NCBI GenBank assembly: GCA_016926795.1
Contig: JAFGNW010000009.1
Span: 1-35,823, forward strand
DNA from: Candidatus Zixiibacteriota bacterium
GTDB taxonomy: Bacteria > Zixibacteria > MSB-5A5 > GN15 > FEB-12
Direction of reading: 5' to 3'
Length of the DNA stretch: 35,823 bases
The stretch's first letter is position 1; every line of letters begins with the position of its first letter. The notes beneath the pieces were generated by a model. It saw only the letters and a list, made by a program, of their open reading frames with translations. It had not been told where the DNA came from and did not search any database. Positions 15,686 through 35,515 of the stretch are shown one piece after another. The position numbers and the translations under genes are program-made.

Positions 15686-16354
<669 letters not shown>

Positions 16355-16355
16355 G

Positions 16356-18755
16356 GTGATGGTGTTCCCTTACTCTATGAAATACGCTGTCAGGAACCTG
16401 CTTAAGAACCGGCGCCTAACGCTTATAAATATTCTGGGGCTGGCGGTGGGCACGGCCAGTGTTCTGCTGATTCTGGTATACGTTATCGGTGAATCGAGTT
16501 ATGAGAATTTCCATGCCCGGCGCGGCCGCATCTGCCGGGTAGCGGTAGATTACGGTCTCTCCGGTTCGAAAATGGGCTTTGCCGGAGTCATGCCGGCTCT
16601 GGGACCCGCGGCGGCGGCGGAGATTCCCGAAGTGGAAAACGCGGTCCGCTGGCGGAGAGATTACCGGGCTCGACTGGAACGCGGTTCGCAAAGTTTTGTA
16701 GAACAGAATTTATTTTTCGTCGATTCCTCCGTGTTCGACATTTTTTCGTTTAACCTCTTAAGCGGCACCCGGGATATCCTGAAAGAACCGTTTGCCGTCG
16801 TTATCTCGAAAAGCATGGCCGAGAAATATTTTGACGGCGAAGACCCGTTGGGGCAGACGCTGGTTTACGATGGCGAATTTTACCTGAAAATTGCCGGTGT
16901 TATGGAAGACGTGCCGGCCAACACACATCTGAATTGTGATTTCCTGGTGTCGTACGCGAGCCTGGTTTCGATGGGGCAGGCGGACGAAGGTGTCTGGAAT
17001 TCGTGCGGCAAGGATTTCACCTACCTCTTACTTCGGGAGAATGCGGACCGGTCTCTGCTGTTGAAAAAATTGGACGGTCTCCTCGCGGCCAACGCCAACG
17101 AAGAAATGGTCAGGGTCGTTGATTTCAAACTGCAGCCGTTGACACAGATTCATTTCAATACCGACTGTTTCGTGGATTGGGGCCGGAAGGGCAATATTAC
17201 TTATGTTTATGTTTTCAGCACGGTGGCGTTTCTGATATTGCTTATCGCGGGGTTCAATTTCGTGAATTTGTCCACCGCGCATTTCGATTATCGTCGGCGG
17301 GAAGTGAGCGTCAAGAAGGTTCTCGGGGCCGGTCGGCTGCATATGATAAAACAATTCCTGGCCGAATCACTTCTTACTTCGTTAACTGCGGTGGTTGCGG
17401 CGCTGGCTCTGTACGAAGTGCTGTTCCCGCAACTGAGCGCTTTTCTCGGTAGTAACGTTCTGGTTAACCGGCTGTCTTTGTCATCGATGATTCTGATTGT
17501 TCTCGTACTCGGTGTTGCCAACGGTCTTCTGGCCGGTTTTTATCCCGCCCTGAGTCTTTCGGGGTTTAAACCGCTTATGACGAACCTTAAAAGCGCGACC
17601 GGCGGCTCGGGACGGTCGGTATTGCGGAAGGTCCTGGTTATCGCACAATTCGCCGTAACAGTGATTTTAATAATCGGCACCGCCGTTATTTTCAGGCAGC
17701 TGGCTTTCATGCAAAACGAACGCCTCGGTTTCGATAAAGATAACGTGATTATAATGAGCATCTCACCCTCTAATCAAGAGGGCCGTGATAATTATGCCGA
17801 GCTTAAAGAAATGTTCAAACAGTATCCGGGTATCATCAGCGCTTCGGGTGCCTATACCGTACCGGGCGTACGCAGCAAGGAAACCTGGACAGTGAGAAAA
17901 GAGGAGGATTCTCCGGAGAACAACTTAAACGTCCGGACAACGGCGGTGGATGTCGGTTATGTCGCGACGCTGGGCCTGGAGCTGGTCGAGGGGCGGGATT
18001 TTTCGGAGAACAATCCCCTCGATATCCGGCAGGGGATTCTGATTAATGAAGCCGCCGCCGAACAGCTGGGTCTGGGAAATCCGGTCGGAAAGAAGATTTT
18101 CGGATTGACGACCGAAGGTCAGCCGAAAACCGATATAATCGGGGTAGTGCGTAATTTCCATGTCACTTCTTTTCGCGAAAAGATAGAACCGTTCGTTATG
18201 TATATCAATCCCGCCCGCTCGTATGTCATGGCGGTTCGCCTGCATCCCGATAAAAAGCGGGAAGCTCTGGCTTATATTGAAAAGTGCTGGTCGAGCGTGT
18301 ATCCGGATAAATCTTTTGATTACACTTACCTCGAGGATATTTACAATTCTTTATACGTCTCGGAAACAAAAATGGGCCAATTGCTGGGGATGTTTACCCT
18401 GCTGGCGGTTTTTGTAGCCTCGCTCGGTTTGTTCGGGCTGGTTACTTTCATGGTGGAAAAACGCCGCAAAGAAATCGGTATCAGAAAGGTCATGGGCGCC
18501 TCGGTATCCGGTATAGTCCTGCTTTTGGCGAAAGATTTTTCCGCGTGGATTCTGTTTGCTAACCTCATCGCCTGGCCGGTGGCTTACTTTGCCTCTGTCA
18601 GCTGGCTTGAAAATTATTTTTATAGAATCAACCCGGATTGGACAATTTTCTTCGCGGCTCTATTATTGGTTATGATTCTGGCGCTGCTAACGGTGAGCTT
18701 TAATTCGCTTAAGGCGGCTTTGAGCAACCCGATTACGGCTTTGAGAGATGAATAG
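16356..18755 (+). CDS. MacB/FtsX-type ABC permease, copy 6 of 7
   Basis: 799 residues from GTG 16356. ATG at 16359 and ATG at 16377 are alternative starts; alignment to the paralogues' N-termini favours one of the first two. The gene begins one base after the stop of ATPase 2, so coupling is likely. It has ESSYENFH after helix 1. The first ATPase contact is changed to EVSVKKVLGA, with Lys for the invariant Arg and Ser for Gly, while the second is EIGIRKVMGAS. The tail is NPITALRDE. This altered first contact motif lies next to the divergent ATPase gene, which could reflect co-adaptation of the pair. Confidence 0.91.
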   Translation: MMVFPYSMKYAVRNLLKNRRLTLINILGLAVGTASVLLILVYVIGESSYENFHARRGRICRVAVDYGLSGSKMGFAGVMPALGPAAAAEIPEVENAVRWRRDYRARLERGSQSFVEQNLFFVDSSVFDIFSFNLLSGTRDILKEPFAVVISKSMAEKYFDGEDPLGQTLVYDGEFYLKIAGVMEDVPANTHLNCDFLVSYASLVSMGQADEGVWNSCGKDFTYLLLRENADRSLLLKKLDGLLAANANEEMVRVVDFKLQPLTQIHFNTDCFVDWGRKGNITYVYVFSTVAFLILLIAGFNFVNLSTAHFDYRRREVSVKKVLGAGRLHMIKQFLAESLLTSLTAVVAALALYEVLFPQLSAFLGSNVLVNRLSLSSMILIVLVLGVANGLLAGFYPALSLSGFKPLMTNLKSATGGSGRSVLRKVLVIAQFAVTVILIIGTAVIFRQLAFMQNERLGFDKDNVIIMSISPSNQEGRDNYAELKEMFKQYPGIISASGAYTVPGVRSKETWTVRKEEDSPENNLNVRTTAVDVGYVATLGLELVEGRDFSENNPLDIRQGILINEAAAEQLGLGNPVGKKIFGLTTEGQPKTDIIGVVRNFHVTSFREKIEPFVMYINPARSYVMAVRLHPDKKREALAYIEKCWSSVYPDKSFDYTYLEDIYNSLYVSETKMGQLLGMFTLLAVFVASLGLFGLVTFMVEKRRKEIGIRKVMGASVSGIVLLLAKDFSAWILFANLIAWPVAYFASVSWLENYFYRINPDWTIFFAALLLVMILALLTVSFNSLKAALSNPITALRDE

Positions 18756-18756
18756 T

Positions 18757-21150
18757 ATGTTTAAAAACTACATAAAAGTGGCGTTCAGGCATATTATCAG
18801 GCACAAGGCTTATTCTTTCATCAATATCACCGGTTTGTCGGTAGGTATGGCCTGCTGCCTTCTGATTTTTTTCTGGGTCTATAACGAAATCAGTTTTGAC
18901 CGGTTTCATCAAAAGGTCGACCGTATTTACCGTCTGACGGAGTTTACCCGGTCGGCTGACGGTTTTGTTCGAAATCGGGTGTCAACACCACCGCCGCTGT
19001 CTGAGGCGCTTGTACGGGAATTCCCGGACGTCGAGGAAGCTACCCGTTTTTACCGTATGGACGGCGTCGTTAAAGCCGGGGATGATATTTACCGGGAAAA
19101 AGATCTTTTCTTTGGCGAAGCGAATGTATTCCGCATTTTCAGTTTCAATCTCAAATATGGCGATCCGGACAAAGCTCTCGTCGAACCTTACTCGGTCGTC
19201 ATTTCACAGTCTCTGGCGGAGAAATATTTTGCGGGGAAGGCTCCGCTTGGAGAGGTCCTGACCTTGGAGAACCATTTCAATTTAACCGTCACGGGCGTAC
19301 TCGACGATATACCCGCCAACTCTCATCTGAAATTTGACTTCCTGGCTTCTTATGAAACGCTTTTATCGATGTATCCCGGATTGCGTAACCATTGGGAAGC
19401 CGGCGGCTGGACTTACGTCCTTTTAAGAGAAAATTATAACCCTCAGATATTTGAAAAAAAACTGTCAAGTCTGATTACCAAATACCGCGGTGAAGACCGG
19501 GCGCTGTCAGTTACCCTGGGATTACAACCTCTGAAAGATATTCACCTGTATTCGAATTACGGGGGCGAACTGGAGAGTAAAACCGACCTTTCGACACTTA
19601 TTGCTTTTTCCCTGATAGGCTTGTTTATCCTGGTCATGGCTTGCATTAATTTTATCAATCTTTCGACGGCTACGGCTTTGCTGCGAGCCAAAGAGGTCGG
19701 TTTGAGAAAAGTAGTCGGAGCCGGCAAGCTCAGCCTGGTAGGACAGTTTCTCGGGGAAGCGGTTGTAGTCTCCCTGATAGCTTTTATATTGTGTCTGGCC
19801 CTTACGGAATTATTACGGCCGGTAATGTCTTCCCTGCTTCAAAAACAAATCTCTTTTGCTCTGTTAGATAATTTATGGTTTTGGTTACTCGTTCCCGGTT
19901 GTTCAATCGTAATCGGTATAACAGCCGGGTTGTACCCGGCCTTTTACCTGTCGATGTTCGGACCCGTTAAAGTCCTGGGCGGTTTTTCAACCGGCTCACC
20001 GAGTACGGTACTGTTCAGAAAGATTTTAGTCACTTTTCAATATGCCGTATCGATAGCCCTCATTGTCTGTGCTCTCCTCGGATACAGCCAGTTGAATTAT
20101 CTGCTCAATAAGGACCTTGGTTTCGAGAAAGAAAACCTGCTGGTTATTCTGTTTGAGGATTATTCCTTGAAAAACGAATACAACCGGGTTAAAGCGTTAT
20201 TTGAACGGAATTCGTTTGTTAAAGGTATCAGCGGCAGTTCTCAGATACCGGGCGGTTTCAATACCAATGGTTTGTCTTTCAACACGGCTTCAATGGAAAA
20301 CGAGAAGAGAAGCTTGCCCGTCTTTTTTGTGGATTATGATTTCGCGCAGACTTTGGGGCTTGCTTTAATCGCCGGTCGGAACTTCACTTCAAATCGTGCC
20401 CTGGATACTGCCGGCGCTTTTATTATCAACGAATCCGCGGCGAAAGTGCTGGGCGATATTTCGGTCGGCGAACGGTTGCAATCGTTTTCCGGGTCGCCGG
20501 GACATTATGAGAAATGGAGCGAAGGTCCGGTTGTTGGCATTGTCAAAGACTATCATTTCCGTAATCTTTATTACAGATTACAGCCCCAGGTTTTGATTGC
20601 CGATGCTCGACGTTGTGACTATATGTTTCTCCGCCTCACGGGGAACGACCGGCAGGCTGTTCTGGCCTCTCTGGAATCACAATGGAAAAGTATTTTGCCG
20701 GACCAGCCTTTCACCTATTCTTTTCTTGAACATGAACTATATCAGATGTATCAATCGGAGAGAAATTTTGCGGCTATTTTGAAATATTTCTGCCTGCTGG
20801 CTGTATTTATAGCCTGTATCGGTCTTTACGGGTTAGCCATTGCGGTTACACAGCAACGTATCCGCGAGTTCGGGATTCGCCGTATTATGGGTGCGTCAAT
20901 ATCGAGCCTGGTTACGATGGTCTCCAGGGAATTTTTGATTCTGGTTCTGCTCGCCAACCTCATCGCCTGGCCGGCGGCCTATCTGCTTATGCGACGATGG
21001 TTGAACGGATATATATACCGCATCGATATTAGTCCGGATATTTTTGTCGTGGCCGCCCTGCTGACGCTTTTTATCGCGATGCTGACCGTCAGCCATCAAG
21101 CCCTGAGAGCCGCCCTGGCTAACCCGGTCGAGGCGTTGCGCCGTGAATAA
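18757..21150 (+). CDS. MacB/FtsX-type ABC permease, copy 7 of 7
   Basis: 797 residues from ATG 18757. GAGAG at 18743-18747 is well spaced for it, and the start MFKNYIKVAFRH then aligns with the other copies. An upstream in-frame ATG at 18748 would add three residues and overlap copy 6 by 8 bases. The motif after helix 1 is EISFDRFH. The first ATPase contact is EVGLRKVVGA; the second is modified to EFGIRRIMGAS, preceded by VTQQRI rather than AEQRT. The tail is NPVEALRRE. It is the last gene of the transporter run, with paired small hairpins immediately downstream. Confidence 0.91.
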   Translation: MFKNYIKVAFRHIIRHKAYSFINITGLSVGMACCLLIFFWVYNEISFDRFHQKVDRIYRLTEFTRSADGFVRNRVSTPPPLSEALVREFPDVEEATRFYRMDGVVKAGDDIYREKDLFFGEANVFRIFSFNLKYGDPDKALVEPYSVVISQSLAEKYFAGKAPLGEVLTLENHFNLTVTGVLDDIPANSHLKFDFLASYETLLSMYPGLRNHWEAGGWTYVLLRENYNPQIFEKKLSSLITKYRGEDRALSVTLGLQPLKDIHLYSNYGGELESKTDLSTLIAFSLIGLFILVMACINFINLSTATALLRAKEVGLRKVVGAGKLSLVGQFLGEAVVVSLIAFILCLALTELLRPVMSSLLQKQISFALLDNLWFWLLVPGCSIVIGITAGLYPAFYLSMFGPVKVLGGFSTGSPSTVLFRKILVTFQYAVSIALIVCALLGYSQLNYLLNKDLGFEKENLLVILFEDYSLKNEYNRVKALFERNSFVKGISGSSQIPGGFNTNGLSFNTASMENEKRSLPVFFVDYDFAQTLGLALIAGRNFTSNRALDTAGAFIINESAAKVLGDISVGERLQSFSGSPGHYEKWSEGPVVGIVKDYHFRNLYYRLQPQVLIADARRCDYMFLRLTGNDRQAVLASLESQWKSILPDQPFTYSFLEHELYQMYQSERNFAAILKYFCLLAVFIACIGLYGLAIAVTQQRIREFGIRRIMGASISSLVTMVSREFLILVLLANLIAWPAAYLLMRRWLNGYIYRIDISPDIFVVAALLTLFIAMLTVSHQALRAALANPVEALRRE

Positions 21151-22304: not shown

Positions 22305-24569
22305 TCAAGACCGCGGGATTTCGAGCTGTTCTCTCAATTTATCCAGTATTCTTTTACCCCGAGCGCGCATTTCTCTTTTAATTTCGATCAGATTCGAGGC
22401 TGTCGGACGGGCATATAATTGCACGTGAAAACGCAGAGAGTTACTTGTTCCCGAAGGTCTGATCGTCACATGTTGCCGTAGCGATTCATCGAGGTATAAT
22501 CTAATCCCTTCATCGGGAAACTGAAAATCTTTTTCCAGAGGGTACAGCCGGTCATATTTCCCGGTGCGATAAACATCCGAAGCAGTAAATTTAAAACTGG
22601 CCAATTCCAGCCGACCCCGGTCAGCCTGTGACGCCAGTTCAAGGGCTTTTTTTAAAATTTTCTTTTTCAATCGGTCTCCCTCAATACCTGGGTACTCACC
22701 ATCCAGAGGGTCGGGTTCGTAGAAAGTCATGAACAGACCGATATCCGGGTCGAGATAAATATATTTATCCAGAAGCTCGATCAAAGTCATTTTCCGCGCT
22801 TTGGCCCAGGCGGCGATTTCGGCCAGTAGCAGACCGGCCAGCGTACCGTCCTTGTCACGGACGTGCCCGCCGCAGCCCAACGAGCGTTCGTCAGGGGGCG
22901 GGCCGCCCAGGATGGAAAAGCCGTTGCTCTGTTCCATGATCCCGATATTTATCGACCTTTGACCGTTGTCCATTCCGAGGCATTCACAGACGTACGGGTG
23001 ACAAAGGTCGCGGTAACGGTTATCGCGACCGCCTTTTAGATTTTTCAGTTCGCCAACTTTGTTCTCCCAGATATCTCTTGCCGCGGCCGCCATCGAGGCG
23101 AACCCCACCCAGGACTTCACTACTCCCACACCGTATTTCCGGGCCAGGAAAGTCAGGCTGTCGGTGGTCGTGTGAGACAGGGTAATGAATTTCTTCTCAG
23201 CCTCGGGCAGATGTCCGTATTTTTCCAGCTCCCGATGTATCCGGTACCAGATAATCAGCGTCCACATATCATCGGCGGGCAAAAGGTAGTAATCCCGATG
23301 GTCATAAATACGTTTTTGATTTTCGGGTATCCGGACGGTCAGGGCGCAGCGGTCGGCGTCGGGGTCGGTCCCGATAAGAATATCAGTATCGTCGTACCCG
23401 TCGGGGTAATCTTCCCGTAAGGCTCGAAGGGCGATTTCCGCGGCGCGGGGGTCACCCGGGTCGGGTTGCTGTTCACGGCCGGGGTCGCTGGTGAAGGCCG
23501 GGAAAAGACCGTTCAGTTGATTCAGACCCAAACGGCTGCGGTGACCGTTGACGGATTTAACTTTGGTAAAACCGACCTCGCGCAAAATTCTGGGAAACAG
23601 CCTGTACCCGGCCCCATGGTAGGGACAATAGGCGATACTCAGACCAGGTTCTCCTGCGGCCGGATTCTTCGAGACCAGAAACGATTTAATCTGCTCAAGG
23701 TATTTTTCGTGGAAGTTGATGATAAAATTTTCCCGTCCGGCATAGTCGAATCCTTCAATCGGTCGGTCGCCGCCAAGGAAACAAAGTCGGTCGGAGCCGG
23801 CGGCGTCGAACGAGACTGGCTCGGGAATATCTTTCATTTTTACGCGGCTTATATATTGTTCGTACATTTCCTCGCGCTCCCGGGGGTCGAACTGGGAACC
23901 GTTGGCTCCGGACAGCTTATAACCGTTGTAACGATAATCGTTGTGGCTGGCGGAAATTAAGATACCTATATCAGCCCGGATAGTTTCATGAGGAACGGCG
24001 AAAGTCAATTCCGGGTATGGGCAGGGTGCGTCAAAGAAGTAAACGGTATAATCAAAGGCTAATAAAAGTTCCGCAACCCGCCGGGCGAAATCAACGCCGC
24101 GCACCCGGCTGTCGTAACCGACCACGACTTTTGAAAAACCTTTTTTGAGACCGTACGCCGCCGCTCCGGCCGTGGTTTTAAGCAGGACGATGTCGTTTAA
24201 GGTGTTGGGACCTTTTAAAATAGCAGCGTCAAGACCGTCTTTTTGAAGTTTGATTATCGAATCCCGGTCGAAAGCCATTAAGCCTCGAATACCGGCGGTA
24301 CCGAACCGAAGTTCCCGGCGGAAGGCGTTAACCAGTTCCGCCCAGCGTTCTTTTTCAATATATCTGATAATGGTTTTTCTCAGGTTGGGAGAGAGAGTAT
24401 CGAGTTTTTCTTCCCTGAGCCAGGTTTCGAGATTGGCCAGAGTCTCCGCCAGAGCAGGCTGCATCCGGACGGTATCGATTTGCCCGTTTTCCCCGACCCG
24501 TTTAAAATATTCGGAAAGACCTTTCCGGGCCGATTTGACGGCTTCGTTCGTTCTCATTGAAAGGGGCAT
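22305..24569 (-). CDS. Phosphoglucomutase/phosphomannomutase-family enzyme, long form
   Basis: 754 residues of the alpha-D-phosphohexomutase family, which moves phosphate between C1 and C6 of hexoses. Visible in order: FGTAGIRGLM, the phosphoserine loop ISASHNDYRYNGYKL (Ser208), the metal loop GTDPDADR, a sugar-contact region reading MEQSNGFSI where EExxG-type motifs are usual, and the phosphate loop RPSGTSNSLRFHV. It is longer than the typical 450-600 residues because of an approximately 85-residue N-terminal helical extension and insertions after the metal loop and around the sugar loop. AAGGA lies five bases before the ATG. It converges with the SUMF1-fold gene and diverges from the hybrid kinase. 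Sugar specificity cannot be read from sequence. Confidence 0.9.
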   Translation of the reverse strand: MPLSMRTNEAVKSARKGLSEYFKRVGENGQIDTVRMQPALAETLANLETWLREEKLDTLSPNLRKTIIRYIEKERWAELVNAFRRELRFGTAGIRGLMAFDRDSIIKLQKDGLDAAILKGPNTLNDIVLLKTTAGAAAYGLKKGFSKVVVGYDSRVRGVDFARRVAELLLAFDYTVYFFDAPCPYPELTFAVPHETIRADIGILISASHNDYRYNGYKLSGANGSQFDPREREEMYEQYISRVKMKDIPEPVSFDAAGSDRLCFLGGDRPIEGFDYAGRENFIINFHEKYLEQIKSFLVSKNPAAGEPGLSIAYCPYHGAGYRLFPRILREVGFTKVKSVNGHRSRLGLNQLNGLFPAFTSDPGREQQPDPGDPRAAEIALRALREDYPDGYDDTDILIGTDPDADRCALTVRIPENQKRIYDHRDYYLLPADDMWTLIIWYRIHRELEKYGHLPEAEKKFITLSHTTTDSLTFLARKYGVGVVKSWVGFASMAAAARDIWENKVGELKNLKGGRDNRYRDLCHPYVCECLGMDNGQRSINIGIMEQSNGFSILGGPPPDERSLGCGGHVRDKDGTLAGLLLAEIAAWAKARKMTLIELLDKYIYLDPDIGLFMTFYEPDPLDGEYPGIEGDRLKKKILKKALELASQADRGRLELASFKFTASDVYRTGKYDRLYPLEKDFQFPDEGIRLYLDESLRQHVTIRPSGTSNSLRFHVQLYARPTASNLIEIKREMRARGKRILDKLREQLEIPRS

Positions 24570-24900
24570 TTATATCCTTTTCATATAGTCAGCAAAAAGG
24601 TAACAGTAATGACGCCGCTGTCAATCGGAAATTGACCCGTCGGCTGTTTTCTAAAGGATGCCTTCCGTAAATCCGATATAAAAGGATATAGTATTTTTAT
24701 CGCGCCGGCATCATGAAAGTACGGGGGAGCCAGGATTTCCTCATACTGTTAACACCTTGGCTTTTATTTTTAAAATAACGATATCTTGACGCCGTGATAT
24801 GTAATTTATGGATATTATCATCAATAATAAGCATCGGGACAACTAATTAGAGCGTCAATTATATTTTTATAAATTGGTAGCATAAGTAAAAGGAAATTTG
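24570..24900. promoter_or_regulatory. Divergent intergenic region with an inverted repeat
   Basis: This 331-base gap separates the phosphohexomutase (leftward) and hybrid kinase (rightward). It contains GTCAAT-CGGAA-ATTGAC (24620-24636), flanked by a possible outer pair GCCG (24614-24617) and CGGC (24641-24644). It lies about 50 bases upstream of the mutase start and may be an operator. TTGACG at 24786 has no well-spaced -10 partner. No RNA gene or further open frame was recognised. AAGGA at 24890-24894 is the kinase ribosome site. Confidence 0.35.
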
Positions 24901-27363
24901 ATGGAAGAATATGTCTGGATTTCGAAACTGGCATATCATCCGGTATTCGTAAGCCATGCTCATCCCGTGTTACAGCGTCTGGCGAAGCAATACCATGTAA
25001 ATATAACCATCGCCGGTCCCCGCGATACCGACCTTGAGACCTACCTTCGGGCAATCCGTGAAGCGGTTGACCGCCGGGTTGCGGGAATCATGATAATCGG
25101 CTGGGGGGATGAAAAGGCTGTCGCCGCCGTGGACACGGCGCTCGAAGCGGGTATTCCGATGGTAACCCTCGACAGCGATATTCCACACAGCCGGAGGCTG
25201 GCTCACATCGGCACCGATTGGTTCCGGATGGGTTGGGCCATGGCGGACAGGCTGGCCGCGCTGGTCGAAGAAAAGGGGCGGGTTTTGATTATGGGGATGG
25301 TCGACCTGGCCAATATGCAGGCCGGTTTCAGGGGGTTTCAGGAACGTATGGCCGCCTATCCCTCGATTATAGTGTCAGGACCGGTCGATGACCTGGATGT
25401 TGGCTTTGAGCGAGCGCGAGAGGTAACTTGTGAATATCTGAAAAAATACCCGGATTTAAAGGGGATTGCCGGATTTGACGGCAACAGCGGTCCGGGTGCG
25501 GCCATGGCCCTGGAAAGTACGGGGCAGGTCGGTGCTGTCAAACTGGTTTGTGTCGATGCCGACCGGGAGCATCTTGATTATATCCGCTCCGGCGTTATCG
25601 ATATCGCCTTCGGTCAGCGACGCGAGGCCTTTACCTATCTGGCCTTTCAGATGCTCTACAGCTACAATCACGGTTCTCCGTCCAGCGGCTATCACCCCGG
25701 TTTGATTAATATTCCGGGCAATATCGATACCGGCCATATTGTCGTGACCGGGGAAAACCTGGAGACTTTCGAATCGGAATTGAGCCTCGACGAGGCTTTC
25801 GAGCAACACGAACTCACGAAAAAATTCGCCCTGATTTCCAGCATGGTTGAAAACTGCGCCGAAATGGCTTTAGCTGCCGACCTTAACGGCCGCGTGGTTT
25901 ATGCCAATCCCGCCGCGGTCAATTTCTTCGGTTTTACTCAGGGCCAGATGATGCAGGCGACGGTAGATAAACTTTTCGAAATAGACTCTGACCGATACGA
26001 ACAGATCCTTAAGGATATCAGTGAAGGCGGTTCCTGCTGGCTGGAAACGGAGGCTTACAGTAAAATAGGAGTAGCGCGGCCGTTTCATGTAACGGTATCG
26101 TCGATGGTCAGTAATTCCGTCCTGAGGGGACTGGTTGTTATAGCTACGGATATCACGGAGCGCAAACAACTGGAAGAACAGCGCCAGAAACTGCAGGAAA
26201 AGCTGAAGCGGGCCGAAAAAATGGAGTCGCTGGGTATTCTGGCCGGCGGGGTGGCCCATGATTTAAACAATATGCTGGGACCCCTGGTCGGGTATTCCGA
26301 TTTAATCCTGGAACAGGTCGACAGCGAATGCTCCCTGGCCCGGATGATGACGCGAATCAGGAAATCCGCCCGCAGCGCCGCCGATGTCATTCAGGATTTG
26401 CTCACCCTGGCCCGCCGGGGCCGCTATGCCATGTTGCCGACCGATTTAAACGAGGTCGTACGGGCGTACTTCGATTCCCCCGGATTCCTGAAAATCAAGC
26501 AGGAAAATCCCAAAGTCGGATTAACCCTGAAGCTCGATGAATCCGTTAAATCGATTTGCGGGTCTTTCACCCACCTTCAGAAAGTAATAATGAACCTGGT
26601 CATAAATGCCTTTGACGCCATGCCCGAAGGCGGGGAACTGGTTATTGAAACCACACAGGAGTACGTTGAGGAACTGATAAGCGGTCAGTACAAGCTGCAG
26701 CCGGGCAATTATGTTATCTTAAAAGTTAGCGATACCGGTTCCGGTATCGAACCGAAAGAACTGGATAAAATATTCGAACCGTACTATTCCAAAAAGAAGA
26801 TGGGCACCAGCGGCAGCGGTCTGGGGCTTTCGGTGGTCTACGGCATTGTCAAGGACCATAAGGGATTTTACGATGTTTTCTCCGAAGTAGGCAAGGGGAC
26901 CGAGTTCATTTTATATTTCCCCATTACCCACGATATCATAAAGAAAACCCTGGAGGAAAAATCCGCTCTTGAAGACCGCCTGGGCGGAACGGAGACGGTT
27001 CTGGTCGTGGACGACATCGAGGAACAACGGGAGATGGCGTCCGAGATGCTCGTCAGTATGGGGTATAAAGTCGAAACGGCCAAAAACGGCCGCGAAGCTG
27101 TTCAGTACCTGAAATTTCATTCGGCTGACCTGGTCCTGCTGGATATGATTATGGAAAAGGATTTCGACGGTCTCGATACTTATCGCGAAATCATTAAAAT
27201 CCATCCGGGACAAAAAGTAGTCGTGGTCAGCGGTTTTTCACAAACCGACCGGGTGCAGGCTATCCTCGACCTCGGGGTCGGCCAATATGTAAAAAAACCG
27301 TATTCTCTGGCGGAACTGGCCGAAGCCCTGCGCCGGGAGTTAAGCCATGATACCGTCGGGTAA
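24901..27363 (+). CDS. Soluble hybrid histidine kinase: periplasmic-binding-protein-like sensor, PAS, kinase, receiver
   Basis: 820 residues from ATG 24901, chosen because AAGGA is six bases upstream; an in-frame TTG at 24898 also exists. Residues about 5-300 resemble sugar-binding type I proteins (RbsB/Peripla_BP_4): a YVWISKL-type first strand, AGIMIIGW, GIPMVTLDSDIP, GIAGFDGN, VKLVCVDAD. There is no signal peptide and no membrane helix, so the sensor domain should lie in the cytosol. A PAS domain follows (about 311-425), then HisKA with His453 in GGVAHDLNN, HATPase (NLVINAFDAM, SDTGSGI, GSGLGLSVVYG), and a C-terminal receiver with Asp748 (VLLDM). It probably senses an intracellular ligand, perhaps a sugar, and relays phosphate. 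No dedicated response regulator adjoins it. Confidence 0.92.
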   Translation: MEEYVWISKLAYHPVFVSHAHPVLQRLAKQYHVNITIAGPRDTDLETYLRAIREAVDRRVAGIMIIGWGDEKAVAAVDTALEAGIPMVTLDSDIPHSRRLAHIGTDWFRMGWAMADRLAALVEEKGRVLIMGMVDLANMQAGFRGFQERMAAYPSIIVSGPVDDLDVGFERAREVTCEYLKKYPDLKGIAGFDGNSGPGAAMALESTGQVGAVKLVCVDADREHLDYIRSGVIDIAFGQRREAFTYLAFQMLYSYNHGSPSSGYHPGLINIPGNIDTGHIVVTGENLETFESELSLDEAFEQHELTKKFALISSMVENCAEMALAADLNGRVVYANPAAVNFFGFTQGQMMQATVDKLFEIDSDRYEQILKDISEGGSCWLETEAYSKIGVARPFHVTVSSMVSNSVLRGLVVIATDITERKQLEEQRQKLQEKLKRAEKMESLGILAGGVAHDLNNMLGPLVGYSDLILEQVDSECSLARMMTRIRKSARSAADVIQDLLTLARRGRYAMLPTDLNEVVRAYFDSPGFLKIKQENPKVGLTLKLDESVKSICGSFTHLQKVIMNLVINAFDAMPEGGELVIETTQEYVEELISGQYKLQPGNYVILKVSDTGSGIEPKELDKIFEPYYSKKKMGTSGSGLGLSVVYGIVKDHKGFYDVFSEVGKGTEFILYFPITHDIIKKTLEEKSALEDRLGGTETVLVVDDIEEQREMASEMLVSMGYKVETAKNGREAVQYLKFHSADLVLLDMIMEKDFDGLDTYREIIKIHPGQKVVVVSGFSQTDRVQAILDLGVGQYVKKPYSLAELAEALRRELSHDTVG

Positions 27364-27410
27364 AACAAGATAGAAAGATATATAATTAGCCTAATGAAGC
27401 CTTAAATAAA

Positions 27411-27460
27411 GTCACTATTGTCACGGATTTCTATTTATTTTTTTTGTCACGACCTGTCAC
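27411..27460. repeat. Four GTCAC boxes upstream of the PAS-LuxR gene
   Basis: GTCAC occurs at 27411-27415, 27420-27424, 27446-27450 and 27456-27460, giving two pairs with start-to-start spacing of 9 and 10 bases. Helical-turn spacing is compatible with a protein-binding array. It lies about 115 bases before the regulator start. Chance is not excluded for a five-base motif. Confidence 0.3.
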
Positions 27461-27574
27461 TGTTCGATATTTCAACCTGTTTAGATTATGAACAATCCGG
27501 TCGATATCTTTAATATCAGCTACTGTAAAATTTGACAAATAAAAGAAAGTCATGGGGTTTTCTCAAAAGCTGGT

Positions 27575-28576
27575 ATGACTATTATTAATAAGGGGATAAA
27601 AGGGGTACAAAAACCCTCAACGGCATGCAAAAAAAAACAATCGCCCCGGAAGCGCATAAAAATAATCAATAATTATAATTTGCATGAAAGTACCCAACGA
27701 ATCATCGGTAACCCGCGACACCAGCTTGAATATATCATAAATTTCCTTCCGGACCCCACTTTTGCTGTCGATTTCAAAGGGATAGTTATCGCCTGGAATC
27801 ATGCCATGGAGAAGCTCAGCGGTATCCCGGCCAAAGAGATTCTCGGCGAGGGAGATTACGCTTACGCCGTTCCGTATTATGGTATCAAGCGGCCTATTTT
27901 GCTCGATCTGATAATCCAAAAGGACAATAAGCTCGAGAAGTTGTATCCTTCTATTACTCGTGACAATGATACTCTCATAGTCGAGGTATTCGCACCGGCT
28001 GTAAAACCGTCCGGTAAGTACCTGTGGGTCAAAGCCAGCCCGCTGTACGATTCTCAGGGAAAGGTAGTCGGAGCTATTGAAGCCACCCGCGATATAACGG
28101 AAATTAAAAAATCCCAGCAGGCCCTGAATGCGATGTATGAGAAGTTAAAAGAAGAGCGGTCGGCTTTACATGAAAAGAATATCGCCCTGCGTGAAATTCT
28201 CGGGCATATCGAGGAAGAGAAACTGCAAATATCCCGCCAGATGAAGGCCAATATCGAGCGGGTGGTTATGCCGGTAATAAAAACCCTGCGTGAAAAAGTG
28301 AAGGACAACGATAGGGAATATTTCTCTTTACTCGAAAACTGCCTTAAAGATATCACGGCGCCCTTTGTCAACAAACTTGAAAGCAGGTTTTCCAAACTTT
28401 CACCCCGCGAAATTGAAATCTGCAATATGGTCAAAAACGGTCACTCCAGCAAAGATATTGCGACCGCTTTAAGCATTTCCGTCCATACCGTCATAAAACA
28501 GAGACAAAGAATAAGAAGTAAACTTGGTATCACCAACGGCAGCATCAACTTGACTTCTTACCTGATGACCTTTTAA
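27575..28576 (+). CDS. PAS-domain LuxR-type transcriptional regulator
   Basis: 333 residues. A basic, lysine-rich N-terminus (1-35) precedes a PAS domain (about 50-180: DPTFAVDFKGIVIAWNHAME, ending GAIEATRDITEIKKSQQ). A long helical segment follows (about 180-265) and then a LuxR helix-turn-helix with LSPREIEICNMVKNGHSSKDIATALSIS split by the turn. It should bind DNA in response to a PAS-sensed signal; no receiver domain is present. The start at 27575 has no good ribosome site, and a TTG around 27680 is an alternative, so the N-terminal 35 residues are uncertain. Flanked by the hybrid kinase and the chemotaxis genes; the target is unknown. Confidence 0.88.
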   Translation: MTIINKGIKGVQKPSTACKKKQSPRKRIKIINNYNLHESTQRIIGNPRHQLEYIINFLPDPTFAVDFKGIVIAWNHAMEKLSGIPAKEILGEGDYAYAVPYYGIKRPILLDLIIQKDNKLEKLYPSITRDNDTLIVEVFAPAVKPSGKYLWVKASPLYDSQGKVVGAIEATRDITEIKKSQQALNAMYEKLKEERSALHEKNIALREILGHIEEEKLQISRQMKANIERVVMPVIKTLREKVKDNDREYFSLLENCLKDITAPFVNKLESRFSKLSPREIEICNMVKNGHSSKDIATALSISVHTVIKQRQRIRSKLGITNGSINLTSYLMTF

Positions 28577-28983: not shown

Positions 28984-31113
28984 ATGAGTTGGAAGGATTT
29001 TAAAATCGCCAAGAAGCTGTATATCGGCTTTGGCATAATTTTGGCGCTCTGTATCGCTGTCGGTTATGTCGGCTGGAACGGTCTGTCAACGGTTTCGGTT
29101 TCGGTCCATAACGCTGCCGATGCCAACAAACTCACTATATTGGTAAAAGAGATGGGAGCGGAACGGGTCGGGTACACGGGAACCAAGGATAAAAAACATT
29201 TTGAAAAAGTCCAGCAAAAAGTGCAGGAAGCTTTTACTATACTTCAGGAGATGAAAAACCGGTTCGAGGACCGGGAGGATGTCGAACTTGCTGAGAGTTG
29301 TAATAAACTGCTTGAAAATTATCAAAAAGGATGGAATCGCTGGGTTGAAGTTTCCGACGAAACGGCGAAGGCTATGAAAAATATAGGCGATGCCGCTGAT
29401 GTTTTTGAAAAACAGGTAGCTGTTCTTCAGGAAAAAAACCTGCAGCAGCTGGAAGAAGATTTCAAGGACCGGCTCAGTCCGGACAGGTTGTATCAGAGTT
29501 ATGGCACCACCCGGGATGCCAATCGACTGGTTACGAATTTTCAGTTTTCAAGGGTGGCTTATCGTAATTTTCGTATCACCGGCGAAAAGAAATATTCCGA
29601 TGAGTACACCGCTATAATTAACAACCTTATAAATTTATCCAACGCAAGCCGGGCAGCGCTGACGGTCCAGGAGGACATTGACCGTTTTACTGAAGTCATA
29701 AATGCCTTGAAGGATATCAAGAATCAATTTGACCTGGTGCTGGCCAAGAATATCGAATCCGGAGAAGTAGCCGGACAACTGGCGGGTCTAGCGGGTGAGG
29801 TGGTCTCCGGTATCGACCAGATGCGCCAGAACCATGAGAAAAAGATGGCCGCCGCTGAAAGCGCCGCCGTATCCATGGCGGTCGGTTTTGTCATCGGGGC
29901 GGTTATTCTCGGCGCCTTTATAGCTTTTGTTATCGCCCGGGGTATTTCACGGCCAGTCTCACAGATGGCACAAATTGCCGAGGATATTGCCACCGGTGAT
30001 ATCCAGCACAACGTGGAACACGAGTCCAAAGATGAAATAGGTGTTCTGGCGGCTTCATTCCGCAAGCTTATCGATTATATGAAAGAACTGGCTTTTGCCT
30101 CGGAAAATATCGCGGATAACAATTTGACCGTTAAAGTCTCGCCAAAGTCGGACAAAGACGTTCTGGGTAATTCTTTCCGGACCATGATCAATAATCTGAC
30201 CGGTATGATACGCCAGATGGCCGACAATGCCCGCGAACTGGTCAGCGCCGCCAATGAAATCTCGTCCTCATCCGAGCAGATGGCCCGCGGCGCCCAGGAC
30301 CAGAACACCCAGGTGAGCCAGGTTTCCACGGCGGTTGAAGAAATGACGGCGACTATCCTGCAATCCTCGAAAAACGCCGGTGAAGCCACCGACGCCTCGC
30401 GCAATGCTTCCGACATCGCCACCTCGGGCGGCCAGATTGTCAGCGAAACCATTCGCGGCATGCAGAATATCGCCAACGTGGTGCGCGAGTCGGCCGAGTC
30501 AATCGGCAAACTGGCCAAATCGGCCGACCAGATCGGGGAAATTATCGGTGTTATCGACGATATCGCCGACCAGACCAACCTGCTGGCGCTCAACGCCGCT
30601 ATCGAGGCCGCCCGCGCCGGTGAACAGGGCCGCGGCTTCGCCGTTGTCGCCGATGAGGTTCGTAAGCTGGCCGAACGAACCGGTAAGGCTACCGGGGAGA
30701 TTACCGAGATGATCAAGGGCATCCAGAACGAGACCAACGACGCCGTCCAGTCGATGGAAGCCGGAATACAGGAAGTCGATAAGGGGCGGGATCTGGCCGA
30801 CAAGGCCGGCAACAGCCTCAACGAAATCGTCACCATGTCCCAGCGGGTTATGGATATGATACAACAGATTGCCACCGCTTCGGAGGAACAGTCATCGGCG
30901 GCCGAGCAGATATCCAAGAACGTCGAACATATTTCCACGGTGACCAAGGAGACGGCCACCGGCGCCGAGCAGTCGGCTGCCGCCGCCGAAGAACTTAACC
31001 GCCAAGCGGAAGGATTGCAGCATATGGTCAGCCGCTTTAAGTTGCTGGACGATGGGCATTCGGATATGAAAGTAGTCGCAGACCGGTCGGTAAAAACGGT
31101 CAACGAGGGTTGA
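28984..31113 (+). CDS. Methyl-accepting chemotaxis protein with helical (HBM/4-helix-type) sensor
   Basis: A 709-residue inner-membrane chemoreceptor. Helix 1 (about 12-32) is followed by an all-helical periplasmic sensor of about 260 residues, whose size and two-bundle look fit an HBM-type domain. Helix 2 is near 298-318 ([21 protein letters not shown]), then HAMP (about 320-370), and a long signalling hairpin whose tip contains [20 protein letters not shown] and [22 protein letters not shown] strong ribosome site precedes ATG 28984. cheW begins four bases after the stop, so the two are surely co-expressed. No CheR-docking pentapeptide (NWETF-like) is seen at the C-terminus. The HBM assignment is by eye; the ligand is unknown. 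Confidence 0.95.
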
Positions 31114-31117
31114 TGAG

Positions 31118-31609
31118 ATGGATAATTCTGTAACCCAAAATTATTCCACCGAGTTGATTCAGCTGGTTTCGTTCAACCTTGCCGATGAAGAATTCGGTGT
31201 TGATATCCTCTCGGTACAGGAAATCAACCGGATGGTGGAAATTACCCGTGTTCCTCAGGTGCCCTCGTATTGCGAGGGCGTCATCAACCTGCGGGGCCGG
31301 GTCATACCCATTATCGACCTGCGGAAGAAATTCGACCTTCCCGTGCGTGACTGGAACAAGGACACGCGCATTATCGTCTGCGATATTGACCACCAGATAG
31401 TGGGGATGATCGTCGATGCGGTTTCCGAGGTCCGCCGCATACCCGGTTCGACCGTCGAGCCGCCGCCGGATATCGTGAACTCGGTTAATTCCCGGTATAT
31501 CCGGGGCGTGGCCAAGTTGCAAGAAAGGCTGTTGCTCTTTCTTGATATCAGGAAACTGATCACGGAAGTCAATCAGGAGGTCAATCAGCTTGATACAGCT
31601 GTGTTATAA
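31118..31609 (+). CDS. cheW: Chemotaxis coupling protein CheW
   Basis: A 163-residue protein that links chemoreceptors to the CheA kinase. It shows the CheW core: LVSFNLADEEFGVDILSVQE, ITRVPQVPSYCEGVINLRG, VIPIIDLRKKF, RIIVCDIDHQIVGMIVDAVSEV and RYIRGVAKL. Length is normal for the family. It starts four bases after the receptor stop, suggesting a dedicated coupler, and is followed by a strong hairpin terminator. No cheA, cheY or cheB is in the window, so the core kinase must be elsewhere. Confidence 0.95.
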   Translation: MDNSVTQNYSTELIQLVSFNLADEEFGVDILSVQEINRMVEITRVPQVPSYCEGVINLRGRVIPIIDLRKKFDLPVRDWNKDTRIIVCDIDHQIVGMIVDAVSEVRRIPGSTVEPPPDIVNSVNSRYIRGVAKLQERLLLFLDIRKLITEVNQEVNQLDTAVL

Positions 31610-31647
31610 AAGCACCCCGATGGTTATTGAGCATAACCTCCCAAAAG

Positions 31648-31687
31648 GCGCGCGGTTTTTTCTGCGATTTTAGTCCGCGCGCTTTTT
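31648..31687 (+). terminator. Intrinsic terminator after cheW
   Basis: GCGCGCGG (31648-31655) pairs perfectly with CCGCGCGC (31675-31682), followed by TTTTT (31683-31687) and CTT. On the opposite strand the stem is followed by CTTTT, so it may also stop the converging porin transcript. A lesser hairpin, GGTTAT-TGAGC-ATAACC (31622-31638), precedes it. Confidence 0.85.
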
Positions 31688-31693
31688 CTTGCT

Positions 31694-32875
31694 CTAAAAG
31701 GAAAGTTGTACCTGAGAACGAATCAGGTAATCAGTCGTGCTGCAAGCGGCGTATGTGCGTCTAGACGAACCGGCGTCGATTTGCCATTTCAGACCGTGCC
31801 CCGAGATATAAAAGTTGAATCCGGCGGTGAGTTCTTCGTCACGGTGCAGAAGCCCGTCCAGCTCATCATCTTCAAGAGTGTTTTCAGCGCTGCGTATCAG
31901 GGCGGTCCTGATATCTACCAGAGCATAGCGAAGGGCCAGTTCGCAGCGCCGGTAAAAGCGGTAAGCGGTCTGAACCAGGGCGCCGGTCATGGCCGGTTCG
32001 GTCTTCGAGTCGTTATCCCGTTTGAAATAACCGGTGTAACCGACGGACGAAAAAGAAAATCCCCGATATTTGGTCAGCACTTCCACCGCCAGGCGCAGGG
32101 AAAAATCACGGCGGGCAACCGGGTCGAAATCGTAAGCCGCGCTCACTCCACTGCTGAGGCGCCATTTATCGCCAGAGTCATCGGTGTCGGAACCGACATC
32201 GATATCGTCGCTGTTGAAAGAACCGTGACATACAATTTCGGGATGGAATTTTTCCACCGCGACCGGGTCGGTCAGGTCGGACGGATTGGGGGTATCTTCA
32301 TTGTAAATCTCGGCAATACCGATCCCGTGCGAAGCCCGGGCGTTGGCCCCGTTGAACACGCCGAAAACAAAGCCCCAGCGGGGGGGGCGCTCAAAGCCGT
32401 TGTGCAACGCCAGTCCCATCTGACGCTCGGCGCCGAAGTACTTGGTTACCACCGCCCAGTCGGCGAAAGTTAAACGTTGAAAAGATTGTATCCGATAGCG
32501 GGTGAAAGGTAATTTGAACTGACCATAGCGGAATTGAAGGTTTTTATCGAGTTGGTAATTAAAATAAAAATCCATTAACTCCAGCGAACCAGGGGCGGTG
32601 CTGAGATGCAGTTTAAAAGTGAAATCGGGATTTAACACCGAGCCGCTCGCGGTAAGGCGGATGCGGCGGAATTTGGTGTAAAACTCACACTCGCGGTCAT
32701 CGTCGGAAGCGGTTTCTTTGATTTGCAGTTCGCTACGTAACTGTCCGACCATTTGAAGCCGTACGTAACTGCTGCTGTCGGCAGCGTACAGGTTGAAGGG
32801 TCCCACCGACGCCCGGCCCGATTGAAAGCATACAATTAAAATTACAAATCCTGAAAAAAGATAATAACGGCGCAT
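31694..32875 (-). CDS. Outer-membrane porin, phosphate-selective porin O/P type
   Basis: 393 residues with a signal peptide (about 1-22; YYLFSGFVILIVCFQSGRAS) and a beta-barrel pattern of alternating hydrophobic strands ending in Phe (VQLSF), as outer-membrane proteins do. The stretch FYTKFRRIRLTASGSVLNP, then DFYFNYQLDKNLQFRYGQFK, and RYRIQSFQRLTFAD matches the OprO/OprP-like family. Selectivity for phosphate cannot be judged; several members carry other anions or are poorly defined. An acidic loop around NSDDIDVGSDTDDSGD is likely surface-exposed. It converges with cheW over the terminator and diverges from the dCache-like kinase. Confidence 0.87.
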   Translation of the reverse strand: MRRYYLFSGFVILIVCFQSGRASVGPFNLYAADSSSYVRLQMVGQLRSELQIKETASDDDRECEFYTKFRRIRLTASGSVLNPDFTFKLHLSTAPGSLELMDFYFNYQLDKNLQFRYGQFKLPFTRYRIQSFQRLTFADWAVVTKYFGAERQMGLALHNGFERPPRWGFVFGVFNGANARASHGIGIAEIYNEDTPNPSDLTDPVAVEKFHPEIVCHGSFNSDDIDVGSDTDDSGDKWRLSSGVSAAYDFDPVARRDFSLRLAVEVLTKYRGFSFSSVGYTGYFKRDNDSKTEPAMTGALVQTAYRFYRRCELALRYALVDIRTALIRSAENTLEDDELDGLLHRDEELTAGFNFYISGHGLKWQIDAGSSRRTYAACSTTDYLIRSQVQLSF

Positions 32876-33198
32876 AAAAAAAAATATTCCTCTGACAAAG
32901 TTTGCGTAAGTAATTTCCTGATTTAAAGTTTAATAAGCAAGTAATTACTGGAGATGCGGGTCGTTTTTAAAGTTGTGGTGCTCACATCCTATTGATTGGC
33001 AAAAACTTAATAAATTAATACTTTCCAGTGAAAAAAATTAAGATTGTGAAAAAATTCACTGTTAAAATGAGCTTTTAATGCTTATTTTAAAGCGGTGATT
33101 TCATCTTGTTTTTGATTCGAGAAAATGAGATACAACCCTGCGGGTAAAAGGGTAAGAATTGTGATCATCAATAATATATCTGAGTAAAGGTCACGATC
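32876..33198. promoter_or_regulatory. AT-rich divergent intergenic region with nested inverted repeats
   Basis: Between the porin and the kinase, CAGTGAA (33026-33032) pairs with TTCACTG (33055-33061). Within it GTGAAAAAA recurs at 33028 and 33046, an 18-base period. Immediately after, TTAAAATGAGC (33062-33072) faces GCTTATTTTAA (33080-33090), an 11-position stem with one mismatch. These are good candidate operators or a curved promoter region for either gene. No clear -35/-10 or -24/-12 pair was identified. AAAGG at 33186-33190 serves the kinase start. Confidence 0.4.
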
Positions 33199-34914
33199 GT
33201 GTCGAAATCATTGTCACGCGGGAAGACGGAATCCGTTTTGGATTTTGCCCCTTTCGACGAGGAGCATTATCGCGAGATAAGGCGGAAGAATATTATTCGT
33301 CTGCTTTTAACATATTTAACACCGTTGATACTGCTCACGATTTATTTTTATGTCCAGTACGGAGTCATCATATCCGAGGGCCGGCGCTTGCACCTGACCG
33401 CTATTGCCGAGAACCAGGCTAACACCCTCGATTTATTTTTATCCGAACGTCTGGTCAATTTATCCAACCTGATAGACGACCCCAAGCTGGAGATACCCCC
33501 TTCATCGGCCAAGATGCAGCAGTATCTGGAACATCTTCAGAGGAACAGTGAAACTTTTGTCGATGTCGGTTATTTCGATTCGGCCGGAGTTCAGGCGGCC
33601 TATGCCGGACCCTACCCCTCGCTGGAGAAGCGCCATTACGGTTCTGAGGACTGGTACCTGGAGGTGAAAAATCGGGAAGATAATTTCGTTATAACCGATA
33701 TCTACCTGGGTTTCCGGCAGCGGCCACATTTCACGATTGCCGTCAGCCGTATCAAGGACAATCAATTTATTGTTTTGCGGGCCACCCTCGACCCGGAAAA
33801 GATTTACGAATACATTTCCTCCCGGCACGGGGCCGGTGAGGTATATACTTCGATTGTCAACCAGGCAGGTTTCTACCAGTTAGTCTCGGCGCGTATCGGT
33901 CATCCTTTGGAAGCTTCGCTGTTTGTTCCTCCTTCGGAACCGACCCTCGGTGCGGATGAGGTCAGTATCGACGGTTCTTCTTTCACCTATGCTTATTCCT
34001 GGCTGCGCAATGCCCATTGGGCGCTGATTGTCCAGTGGTCGACTGGGGAAAAACTCGGATTTCTGTCCGGCGCGCGTCTTCAAATACTGGCGTTTTCGGC
34101 GGTAATGATAATCCTGATTTTTCTGATAATCATCAACCGCGCCCGGAAACTGGTCTCGATGCAGATGGAATCCGACCGCACCCGGGCTCAGCTGGAACAT
34201 GCCTCCAAACTGGCATCGGTCGGCGAACTGGCGGCCGGTATCGCCCATGAGATAAACAACCCCCTGGCGGTTATCAGTGAAGAAGCCGGTTTGATGAAGG
34301 ATTTGATGAATCCCGAGTTCGGTGAGGTGACCAAACCCGAGGAGTTGACCGAATACCTCGACAACATCCAGGAATCCGTCTTTCGTTGCCGGGATATCAC
34401 CCGTAAGCTGCTCGGTTTCGTTCGCAAAACCGAAATCGATTTGAAACCGCACAATATTCACAAACTGATAAACGGTGTTATGGATGGTTTCCTGAGCAAG
34501 GAGATGGCGGTTGATGATATTGACGTTATCAGGAATTATGCATCCGATATCCCGCCGCTGGTAACCGACGGTAACCAGTTGCAGCAGGTTTTGCTCAATA
34601 TCTTCAACAACGCCTCCGACGCTATCGAGGGCCGGCCGGGTAAAATAACCATCGCGACCTCGGCTGATAATGAATATGTTTATATCGCCATCAGCGACAC
34701 CGGTAAGGGGATGACCCAGGAACAGATGAACAAAATATTCCTGCCTTTTTACAGCACCAAAGAAGTGGGCAAAGGCACCGGGTTGGGGCTGTCGGTCAGC
34801 TATGGGATTATCAAGAGCCTGGGGGGGAAAATAGAAGTAAAGAGCAAACCCGGCGAAGGCAGTACTTTTACGATAAGCCTGCCTTTAAGTAAAACTCCGG
34901 GTAAGGATAAATAA
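33199..34914 (+). CDS. Membrane sensor histidine kinase with dCache-like periplasmic domain
   Basis: 571 residues from GTG 33199 (AAAGG eight bases upstream). Membrane helix 1 is at about 32-53. A periplasmic domain of about 240 residues follows with dCache features: DVGYFDSAGVQAAYAGPYP, then YGSEDWYLEV, TDIYLGFRQRPHFTIAVS and a distal half ending HWALIVQWS. Helix 2 is at about 294-314. The kinase core has His350 in ELAAGIAHEINNPLAVISEE, NIFNNASDAI, ISDTGKGM and GKGTGLGLSVSYG. It lacks a receiver. A CBS-pair gene follows after 20 bases, then a response regulator, so it probably phosphorylates that regulator after sensing a small periplasmic ligand. Confidence 0.93.
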   Translation: MSKSLSRGKTESVLDFAPFDEEHYREIRRKNIIRLLLTYLTPLILLTIYFYVQYGVIISEGRRLHLTAIAENQANTLDLFLSERLVNLSNLIDDPKLEIPPSSAKMQQYLEHLQRNSETFVDVGYFDSAGVQAAYAGPYPSLEKRHYGSEDWYLEVKNREDNFVITDIYLGFRQRPHFTIAVSRIKDNQFIVLRATLDPEKIYEYISSRHGAGEVYTSIVNQAGFYQLVSARIGHPLEASLFVPPSEPTLGADEVSIDGSSFTYAYSWLRNAHWALIVQWSTGEKLGFLSGARLQILAFSAVMIILIFLIIINRARKLVSMQMESDRTRAQLEHASKLASVGELAAGIAHEINNPLAVISEEAGLMKDLMNPEFGEVTKPEELTEYLDNIQESVFRCRDITRKLLGFVRKTEIDLKPHNIHKLINGVMDGFLSKEMAVDDIDVIRNYASDIPPLVTDGNQLQQVLLNIFNNASDAIEGRPGKITIATSADNEYVYIAISDTGKGMTQEQMNKIFLPFYSTKEVGKGTGLGLSVSYGIIKSLGGKIEVKSKPGEGSTFTISLPLSKTPGKDK

Positions 34915-34934
34915 ACGCCAAAAAGGATTTCACC

Positions 34935-35498
34935 ATGGATACAAAAAAGGTCAAAGATTTAATGGTTCCGCTGGGGGAATATGCGATAGTTTCGCATACC
35001 GCCACGATTCTTGACGCCCTGGAAGCCCTGGAACGGTCTCAGACGAGACTTCCTCCCGGAAAGCATCGTCACCGGGCGGTACTGGTTATCGACGATGACA
35101 AAAAGGTGGTCGGTAAAATCGGCCATCTCGGTTTCCTGAGAGCTCTGGAGCCGAAGTACAGCATTCTGGGCGATATGGGCAAACTGTCCCGGGTCGGTCT
35201 GGAACCGCAGTTTATTTCTTCAATGATGGACAATTTCCGGTTTTTCGAGGAAAATCTTTCGGATTTATGCCATCGTGCCTGCCATATCAGGGTGGTCGAT
35301 GTTATGCGACCGGTGGAGGAAAACATCGATGAAAACGCGACCATCAACGAAGCCATTCACAAGCTGGTGATGTGGCAGACGCTGTCGCTTCTGGTTATCC
35401 GGGAGAAAAACGGTAAAGAAGTCGTGGGTCTTCTGCGGCTGTCGGATGTTTTTGAAGAAATTACCAATTTCATGAAGGAAAAAACAGGTTTAAAATAA
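34935..35498 (+). CDS. CBS-domain pair protein between kinase and response regulator
   Basis: A 187-residue soluble protein. CBS motif 1 covers about 5-70 (VKDLMVP, ATILDALEALE, RAVLVIDDDKKVVGKIGHL). A helical insert of about 45 residues follows (roughly 75-120, FISSMMDNFRFFEENLSDL). CBS motif 2 covers about 122-182 (VVDVMRP, ATINEAIHKLVMWQTLSLLVI, EVVGLLRLSDVFEEI). CBS pairs usually bind adenosine nucleotides, so this could feed energy status into the neighbouring two-component pair (inference). Ribosome site AAAAAGG upstream; gaps of 20 and 17 bases to its neighbours imply one operon. Confidence 0.9.
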   Translation: MDTKKVKDLMVPLGEYAIVSHTATILDALEALERSQTRLPPGKHRHRAVLVIDDDKKVVGKIGHLGFLRALEPKYSILGDMGKLSRVGLEPQFISSMMDNFRFFEENLSDLCHRACHIRVVDVMRPVEENIDENATINEAIHKLVMWQTLSLLVIREKNGKEVVGLLRLSDVFEEITNFMKEKTGLK

Positions 35499-35515
35499 TA
35501 TGATTGGAGTGGTGT

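Follow-up and report, generated by a model that had tools for sequence, protein, structure and literature searches.

A soluble histidine kinase with a solute-binding-protein input domain, and a small family of putative cytosolic sensors that share it

The window (the whole 35,823-nucleotide stretch of Candidatus Zixiibacteriota DNA analysed here) encodes an 820-aa hybrid histidine kinase that is probably a cytosolic sensor with a captured transporter solute-binding protein (SBP) as its ligand-gated input, in which the SBP-PAS part is inherited and the output parts are exchanged (Table 1). Proteins that share this SBP-PAS part probably read a small molecule inside the cell. These putative cytosolic sensors are a discrete, previously uncollected family, and we found no description of it in the open-licence full-text literature on cytosolic SBP-kinase fusions and related regulators.

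Table 1. Positions of the sensor kinase and its domains in the window, and of kinase-less relatives in their own loci
Feature	Coordinates	Strand	Evidence
Soluble hybrid histidine kinase with N-terminal SBP domain, 820 aa	24901..27363	+	ORF, upstream stop, AAGGA, no hydrophobic segment
Type I SBP domain, residues 1-300, candidate ligand-binding; strand 1 = residues 3-7	24901..25800	+	Pfam Peripla_BP_4 (residues 6-255, E = 4e-40, profile positions 3-253 of 258), AlphaFold2, Foldseek, orthologues
PAS domain, residues 312-418	25834..26154	+	Pfam PAS/PAS_9 (E about 1e-9); co-linear with SBP domain in all members
HisKA dimerisation/phosphoacceptor domain; His453 codon 26257-26259 (GGVAHDLNN)	26239..26418	+	Pfam (residues 447-506, E = 3e-6), motif positions
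HATPase_c catalytic domain; N, G1 and G2 boxes intact	26569..26928	+	Pfam (residues 557-676, E = 2e-21), motif positions
Receiver domain; phosphoacceptor Asp748 codon 27142-27144	26998..27330	+	Pfam Response_reg (residues 700-810, E = 4e-23), motif positions
Kinase-less Omnitrophota member	L027:6001-8412
Kinase-less Omnitrophota member	L029:6001-7647
Kinase-less Omnitrophota member	L048:400-2424	-

SBP domains of signalling proteins are mostly extracytoplasmic (PMC8846402), and a mis-called start could conceal an exported or membrane-anchored form of the protein with a periplasmic SBP domain. We consider this extremely improbable. The ATG at 24901 is preceded by AAGGA at 24890-24894, 6 nt upstream, and an in-frame TAA at 24883-24885, the sixth codon before the start with five codons in between, makes a longer start that adds an export signal impossible. 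In six contig relatives (L022, L024-L027 and L029), an in-frame stop likewise lies 0-15 codons upstream of the start. The highest mean hydropathy over 19 residues is 0.58 in the first 45 residues and 1.51 in the whole kinase, the latter within the PAS domain, compared with 2.63 for the signal peptide of a genuine exported relative. No membrane helix was found in the kinase by hydropathy or Pfam, and no hydrophobic segment occurs anywhere in the 11 family proteins. All eleven align from residue 1, beginning M(E/Q)EY(V/I)(W/L)(I/V)S, and since the start residue and the missing signal are common to the ten relatives of the kinase, its start is not mis-called. At the level of sequence, a mis-called start is thus already refuted, barring a non-classical route, and the earlier note was right to describe a soluble hybrid kinase that has no membrane helix and whose binding fold starts at the first residues with no signal peptide; the upstream start with an export signal that it named as a way of being wrong was looked for and is excluded by the TAA. 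The interval 24560-27700 contains 13 sigma-70-like promoter matches compared with 4.7 expected from shuffles, and three of the 13 lie just before the sensor gene, in the gap at 24749-24865.

The Pfam matches of the protein, in the order SBP-PAS-HisKA-HATPase_c-receiver, lie above the gathering cut-offs, and His453, the N and G boxes and Asp748 on one chain identify a hybrid histidine kinase, just as the near-full Peripla_BP_4 match and a two-lobed fold identify a type I SBP domain. It does not belong to the ABC-transporter SBPs, the LacI/GalR regulators or the HTCS proteins. The signal of an ABC-transporter SBP is missing, and no permease or ATPase of that class is adjacent. Pfam finds no helix-turn-helix (HTH) of the LacI/GalR kind, the binding domain starting at residue 1, and neither the membrane helix nor the C-terminal HTH of a Bacteroides-type HTCS was detected by hydropathy and Pfam.

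An AlphaFold2 model of the SBP-PAS part, run with the 11-sequence family alignment (mean pLDDT 81.9, pTM 0.65), has a two-lobed type I binding fold from residue 3, and its first strand puts the beginning of that fold at the chain start. The earlier note had named the lack of a ligand pocket as a ground for abandoning its reading; the model shows a cleft-bearing type I fold that is nearest to the SBPs of sugar transporters. The best Foldseek matches in the PDB are the liganded T. maritima glucose-binding protein (2h3h) and a B. halodurans sugar-binding protein (3g1w), with AraP (6sw4), GanP (6guq), XylFII (5xss) and RbsB among the other top matches, several of them liganded; TM-scores against sugar-binding proteins are mostly 0.8-0.9 on target. 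AraP and GanP, like XylFII, are tied to sensor kinases. Sequence searches agree, finding glucose-, arabinose- and xylose-binding proteins nearest. No characterised LacI/GalR repressor core is among the best 50 structure matches listed, and an origin from LacI-type repressors is not supported, transporter SBPs being nearest by sequence, structure and tree.

Loss of the signal peptide from a transporter binding protein best accounts for the SBP domain, because the mature N-terminus of exported relatives aligns beside the family Met1 and because of the domain's place in a maximum-likelihood tree. At the start of the alignment, L041 reads ...SSAFAEEEYIYVS (...SSAFA-EEEYIYVS), the exported relative H3 ...AKETYYWIS and the family MEEYVWIS, with the cleavage site of the exported relatives judged by eye. 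In the tree, the family binding domain is one clade (100/100), and its sister is H3, an exported Mesorhizobium transporter SBP (WP_195180195.1; 100/98) encoded in the same operon as a CUT2 ATPase and permease, a setting in which H3 presumably binds a solute. With CUT2-type SBPs (RbsB, T. maritima TM0114/2h3h and WP_195180195.1), the family has in common the type I fold, Peripla_BP_4 and the Asp/Asp/Gln positions of the pocket, whereas it differs in having no signal peptide, in being fused to PAS (mostly with a kinase as well), in an invariant Gly in place of the pocket Arg, and in lying outside transporter operons. The H3 operon also has genes for an FAA-hydrolase-family protein, a zinc alcohol dehydrogenase, a Gfo/Idh/MocA oxidoreductase and an MBL-fold hydrolase, and one annotated 2-dehydropantoate 2-reductase; this content would fit a ligand of the oxidised-carbohydrate or hydroxy-acid type, which we take as a lead only. 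The H3 gene itself (L062:3887-4906) encodes the family's hinge Trp and an Ala replacing the pocket arginine.

Including the window's protein, the family has 11 members, drawn from its own phylum, Planctomycetota, Omnitrophota, Electryoneota and deltaproteobacterial genomes. With the SBP domain as query, GTDB contigs yielded eight full-length relatives (45-61% identical), from Planctomycetota, Omnitrophota (four), Candidatus Tariuqbacter (Electryoneota) and two deltaproteobacterial genomes; the window's own order contributes one relative (G065, 62% identical) and Omnitrophota one further member (G785). The PAS domain comes next after the SBP domain in all members by Pfam. Against the family profile, members reach E = 1e-137 or better, with a sharp drop to about 1e-48 or worse for the best-scoring proteins outside the family; the three of those outsiders that we inspected are frames of 326-393 aa with signal-like N-termini and an adjoining CUT2 ATPase gene. 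Within the window's phylum, 30 of 32 Peripla_BP_4 matches lie in frames of 217-434 aa, and the only long frames are the two family members, at 825 and 1432 aa. The family is rare, occurring in 2 of 133 genomes of its own phylum, 1 of 55 of its own family (the window's own genome), 5 of 384 Omnitrophota, 1 of 294 Planctomycetota, 1 of 39 Electryoneota and 1 of 395 deltaproteobacterial genomes (a second deltaproteobacterial sample, sharing genomes with the first, again gave one member), fractions that are not unbiased because the sampled groups were partly chosen for containing members. Its patchy distribution over phyla favours spread by horizontal transfer.

The search for the same domain order in other genomes, which the earlier note had proposed, was successful (L022, L025, L028 and L030 among the relatives), and comparison of the members points to a fixed input and a changing output. 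The first PAS domain is co-linear with the SBP domain in every case, with 25-40% identity over the full length in the ten relatives. The output is HisKA-HATPase-receiver in the window protein, L022, L025, L028 and L030 (in L030, HisKA is not called by Pfam and the H-box is present) and HisKA-HATPase without a receiver in L023; in L027, L029 and L048, three complete Omnitrophota proteins, PAS repeats take the place of a kinase. L024 is cut by a contig end, and L026 resembles L027 with a frameshift. That apparent frameshift (L026:6030-6960) interrupts the Omnitrophota homologue beyond the second PAS domain and could be an artefact of assembly. The kinase-receiver half of the window protein is 59% identical to that of a multi-PAS hybrid kinase from its own genome (L002, contig C206), which has PAS repeats where the window protein has its SBP domain, but only 40% identical to the kinase half of the same-order family member G065. 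Together with the varying C-terminal parts, these identities make SBP-PAS the conserved input and the outputs the exchanged part; as far as sequence comparison can tell, the SBP-PAS unit is an inherited module whose output has been exchanged between lineages. Kinase control is not the family's universal output, given that L027, L029 and L048 have no kinase, and these relatives would need a partner kinase.

Ligand binding by the SBP domain is likely. Mean pairwise column identity is 0.52 in the SBP domain versus 0.36 in PAS, as expected if the former binds something specific. In RbsB, the sequence of which we verified against the PDB, ribose is contacted by N13, F15, F16, D89, R90, R141, N190, D215 and Q235, the last of which is also a hinge residue (PMC3676853). 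The family has D/E at the D89 position, D/N at N190, D/E at D215, F/Y at F16 and always Q at Q235. In the window protein, D91, D219 and Q239 are the equivalents of D89, D215 and Q235, and across the 11 members Q239 is invariant, D219 is present in 10 (Glu in the remaining one) and D91 is D or E. The F15 position has become V/I/L, the N13 and R90 positions are variable, and the R141 position is Gly in all 11 members; the latter is Arg in RbsB, TM0114, AraP, L041, L049, L050, H1 and an SBP of the window's own genome, and Ala in H3. The first hinge segment has W107 at the position of RbsB N105, and this Trp is present in every one of the 11 members as well as in H3. These observations are consistent with a pocket that is kept but altered, and the combination of the hinge Trp with Ala at the Arg position in H3 suggests that the alteration probably began in an exported ancestor, before export was lost.

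What the domain binds, and whether it still binds anything, can be weighed on the same residues. A classical free sugar (or nucleoside) bound in the cytosol, as by the cores of LacI or XylR, is a possible but doubtful ligand: the nearest folds and sequences are those of glucose-, arabinose- and xylose-binding proteins, and D91, D219 and Q239 match ligand residues of RbsB (PMC3676853), but with an invariant Gly for Arg141 and Val/Ile/Leu for Phe15 this is not a classical RbsB-type sugar pocket, and no sugar transport or catabolic gene is conserved next to the family genes. The earlier note's proposal that an intracellular sugar or nucleoside is sensed is not established, because the Gly occupies a ligand-contacting Arg position; we also saw nothing that indicates nucleosides. 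Our best guess at a candidate is a small carbohydrate-like metabolite, and the whole family probably shares a single ligand, recognised without the usual arginine. TMAO was considered as a TorT-like ligand and rejected, the profile match being weak, partial (positions 22-123) and, at 3.5e-5, far short of the cut-off.

More doubtful still is a loss of ligand binding altogether, with the SBP domain acting as a dimerisation or protein-docking scaffold that, for example, meets a partner protein. The lost pocket arginine and aromatic position would fit such a role, as would the long invariant stretches distant from the mapped pocket (NHGS, and NIPGxID near the third hinge crossing) and the conservation of the mapped pocket columns, whose excess over the domain (0.64 vs 0.52, p about 0.10) is not significant. 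However, Q239, D219 and D/E91 have been retained at 45-62% identity, and the invariant W107 is common to H3, a CUT2-operon SBP that is presumably solute-binding. We therefore prefer the ligand-gated sensor, in which gating of the kinase by the SBP domain is likely, if putative. In this sensor, an intracellular small molecule would bind in the SBP cleft and the two lobes would close; closure would pass through the segment at approximately residues 296-315 into the PAS domain and then the HisKA helices, and would change both autophosphorylation at His453 and phosphotransfer to Asp748 in the receiver on the same chain. The SBP-PAS linker (residues 293-319) is the least certain part of the model, with pLDDT below 50, so this coupling path is not visible in it. 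The phosphoryl group might leave through an unlinked phosphotransfer protein or regulator, or act through the receiver itself. We offer only tentatively the broader scenario of an importer receptor turned inward, in which a horizontally spread SBP-PAS module was joined to available outputs and senses one shared metabolite through its arginine-less pocket.

AraPST is an SBP-dependent sensor kinase system in which, as in XylFII-LytS, TorT-TorS and LuxP-LuxQ, a histidine kinase relies on an SBP to recognise the ligand, the role we propose here, and XylFII and AraP are among the nearest folds of the window SBP domain. In all four systems a separate extracytoplasmic SBP works with a membrane kinase, whereas the window protein is one soluble chain predicted to be cytosolic. 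The Bacteroides hybrid two-component sensor 2x7x (a "sensor protein" in the PDB, which we take to be BT1754) was matched in sequence and has an SBP fold on a kinase chain; it is presumably periplasmic and part of a membrane protein, in contrast to the soluble, cytosolic window protein. XylFII-LytS, TorT-TorS and LuxP-LuxQ have been described as SBP-dependent sensor kinases (PMC6321045). LacI/GalR repressors and XylR use the type I core as a cytosolic sensor, as the window protein would, but drive DNA binding directly rather than a kinase; for XylR, the cytosolic role follows Ni et al. 2013 as related in PMC8647362. SBP-type domains in cytosolic signalling proteins have also been noted in general terms (PMC9602780, PMC8846402), and the principle is thus already known. 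The family would represent a clean step in receptor evolution, from an exported SBP to a cytosolic kinase input by loss of the signal peptide close to its cleavage point. Because the family is small and well conserved, its ligand could be sought with a single soluble domain, and a soluble one-chain cytosolic sensor of the type I fold would be a useful scaffold for engineered sensors.

No metabolic or other neighbour gene common across lineages was found beside the relatives examined. The earlier note's statement that no response regulator lies nearby holds for the adjacent genes, but the window does contain a sigma-54-type regulator at 3-1028 (minus strand) and a receiver ORF that begins at 35504 (plus strand) and is cut by the contig end, neither linked to the sensor gene. 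Among the relatives, a sigma-54-type response regulator comes after L023 with a gap of 1 bp and another lies two genes beyond L030, and a lone receiver ORF comes after L048. The gene immediately downstream of the sensor kinase in the window (27575-28576) encodes a 333-aa protein with PAS and a LuxR-type HTH; we rejected this protein as a partner, since it lacks a receiver domain and its gene does not adjoin the sensor gene in those relatives that we inspected. Transcribed divergently from the sensor gene, 22305-24569 (minus strand) encodes a 754-aa phosphohexomutase-like protein in which Pfam recognises only domains I and II, and in three syntenic Omnitrophota loci the opposite strand carries a gene for phosphofructokinase, recognised by profile in two of them; as a clue to the ligand, both neighbours are suggestive at most. 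Elsewhere in the window, 1320-21150 contains an HlyD-like gene, two ABC ATPases and seven MacB/FtsX-sized permease ORFs, all in one direction, the permeases forming an unusually large paralogous set (785-805 aa; four checked with Pfam) that is followed by an FGE-sulfatase-domain gene. The interval 28984-35823 encodes an MCP with an HBM sensor, CheW, Porin_O_P, a dCache histidine kinase and a CBS protein, and ends in the receiver ORF.
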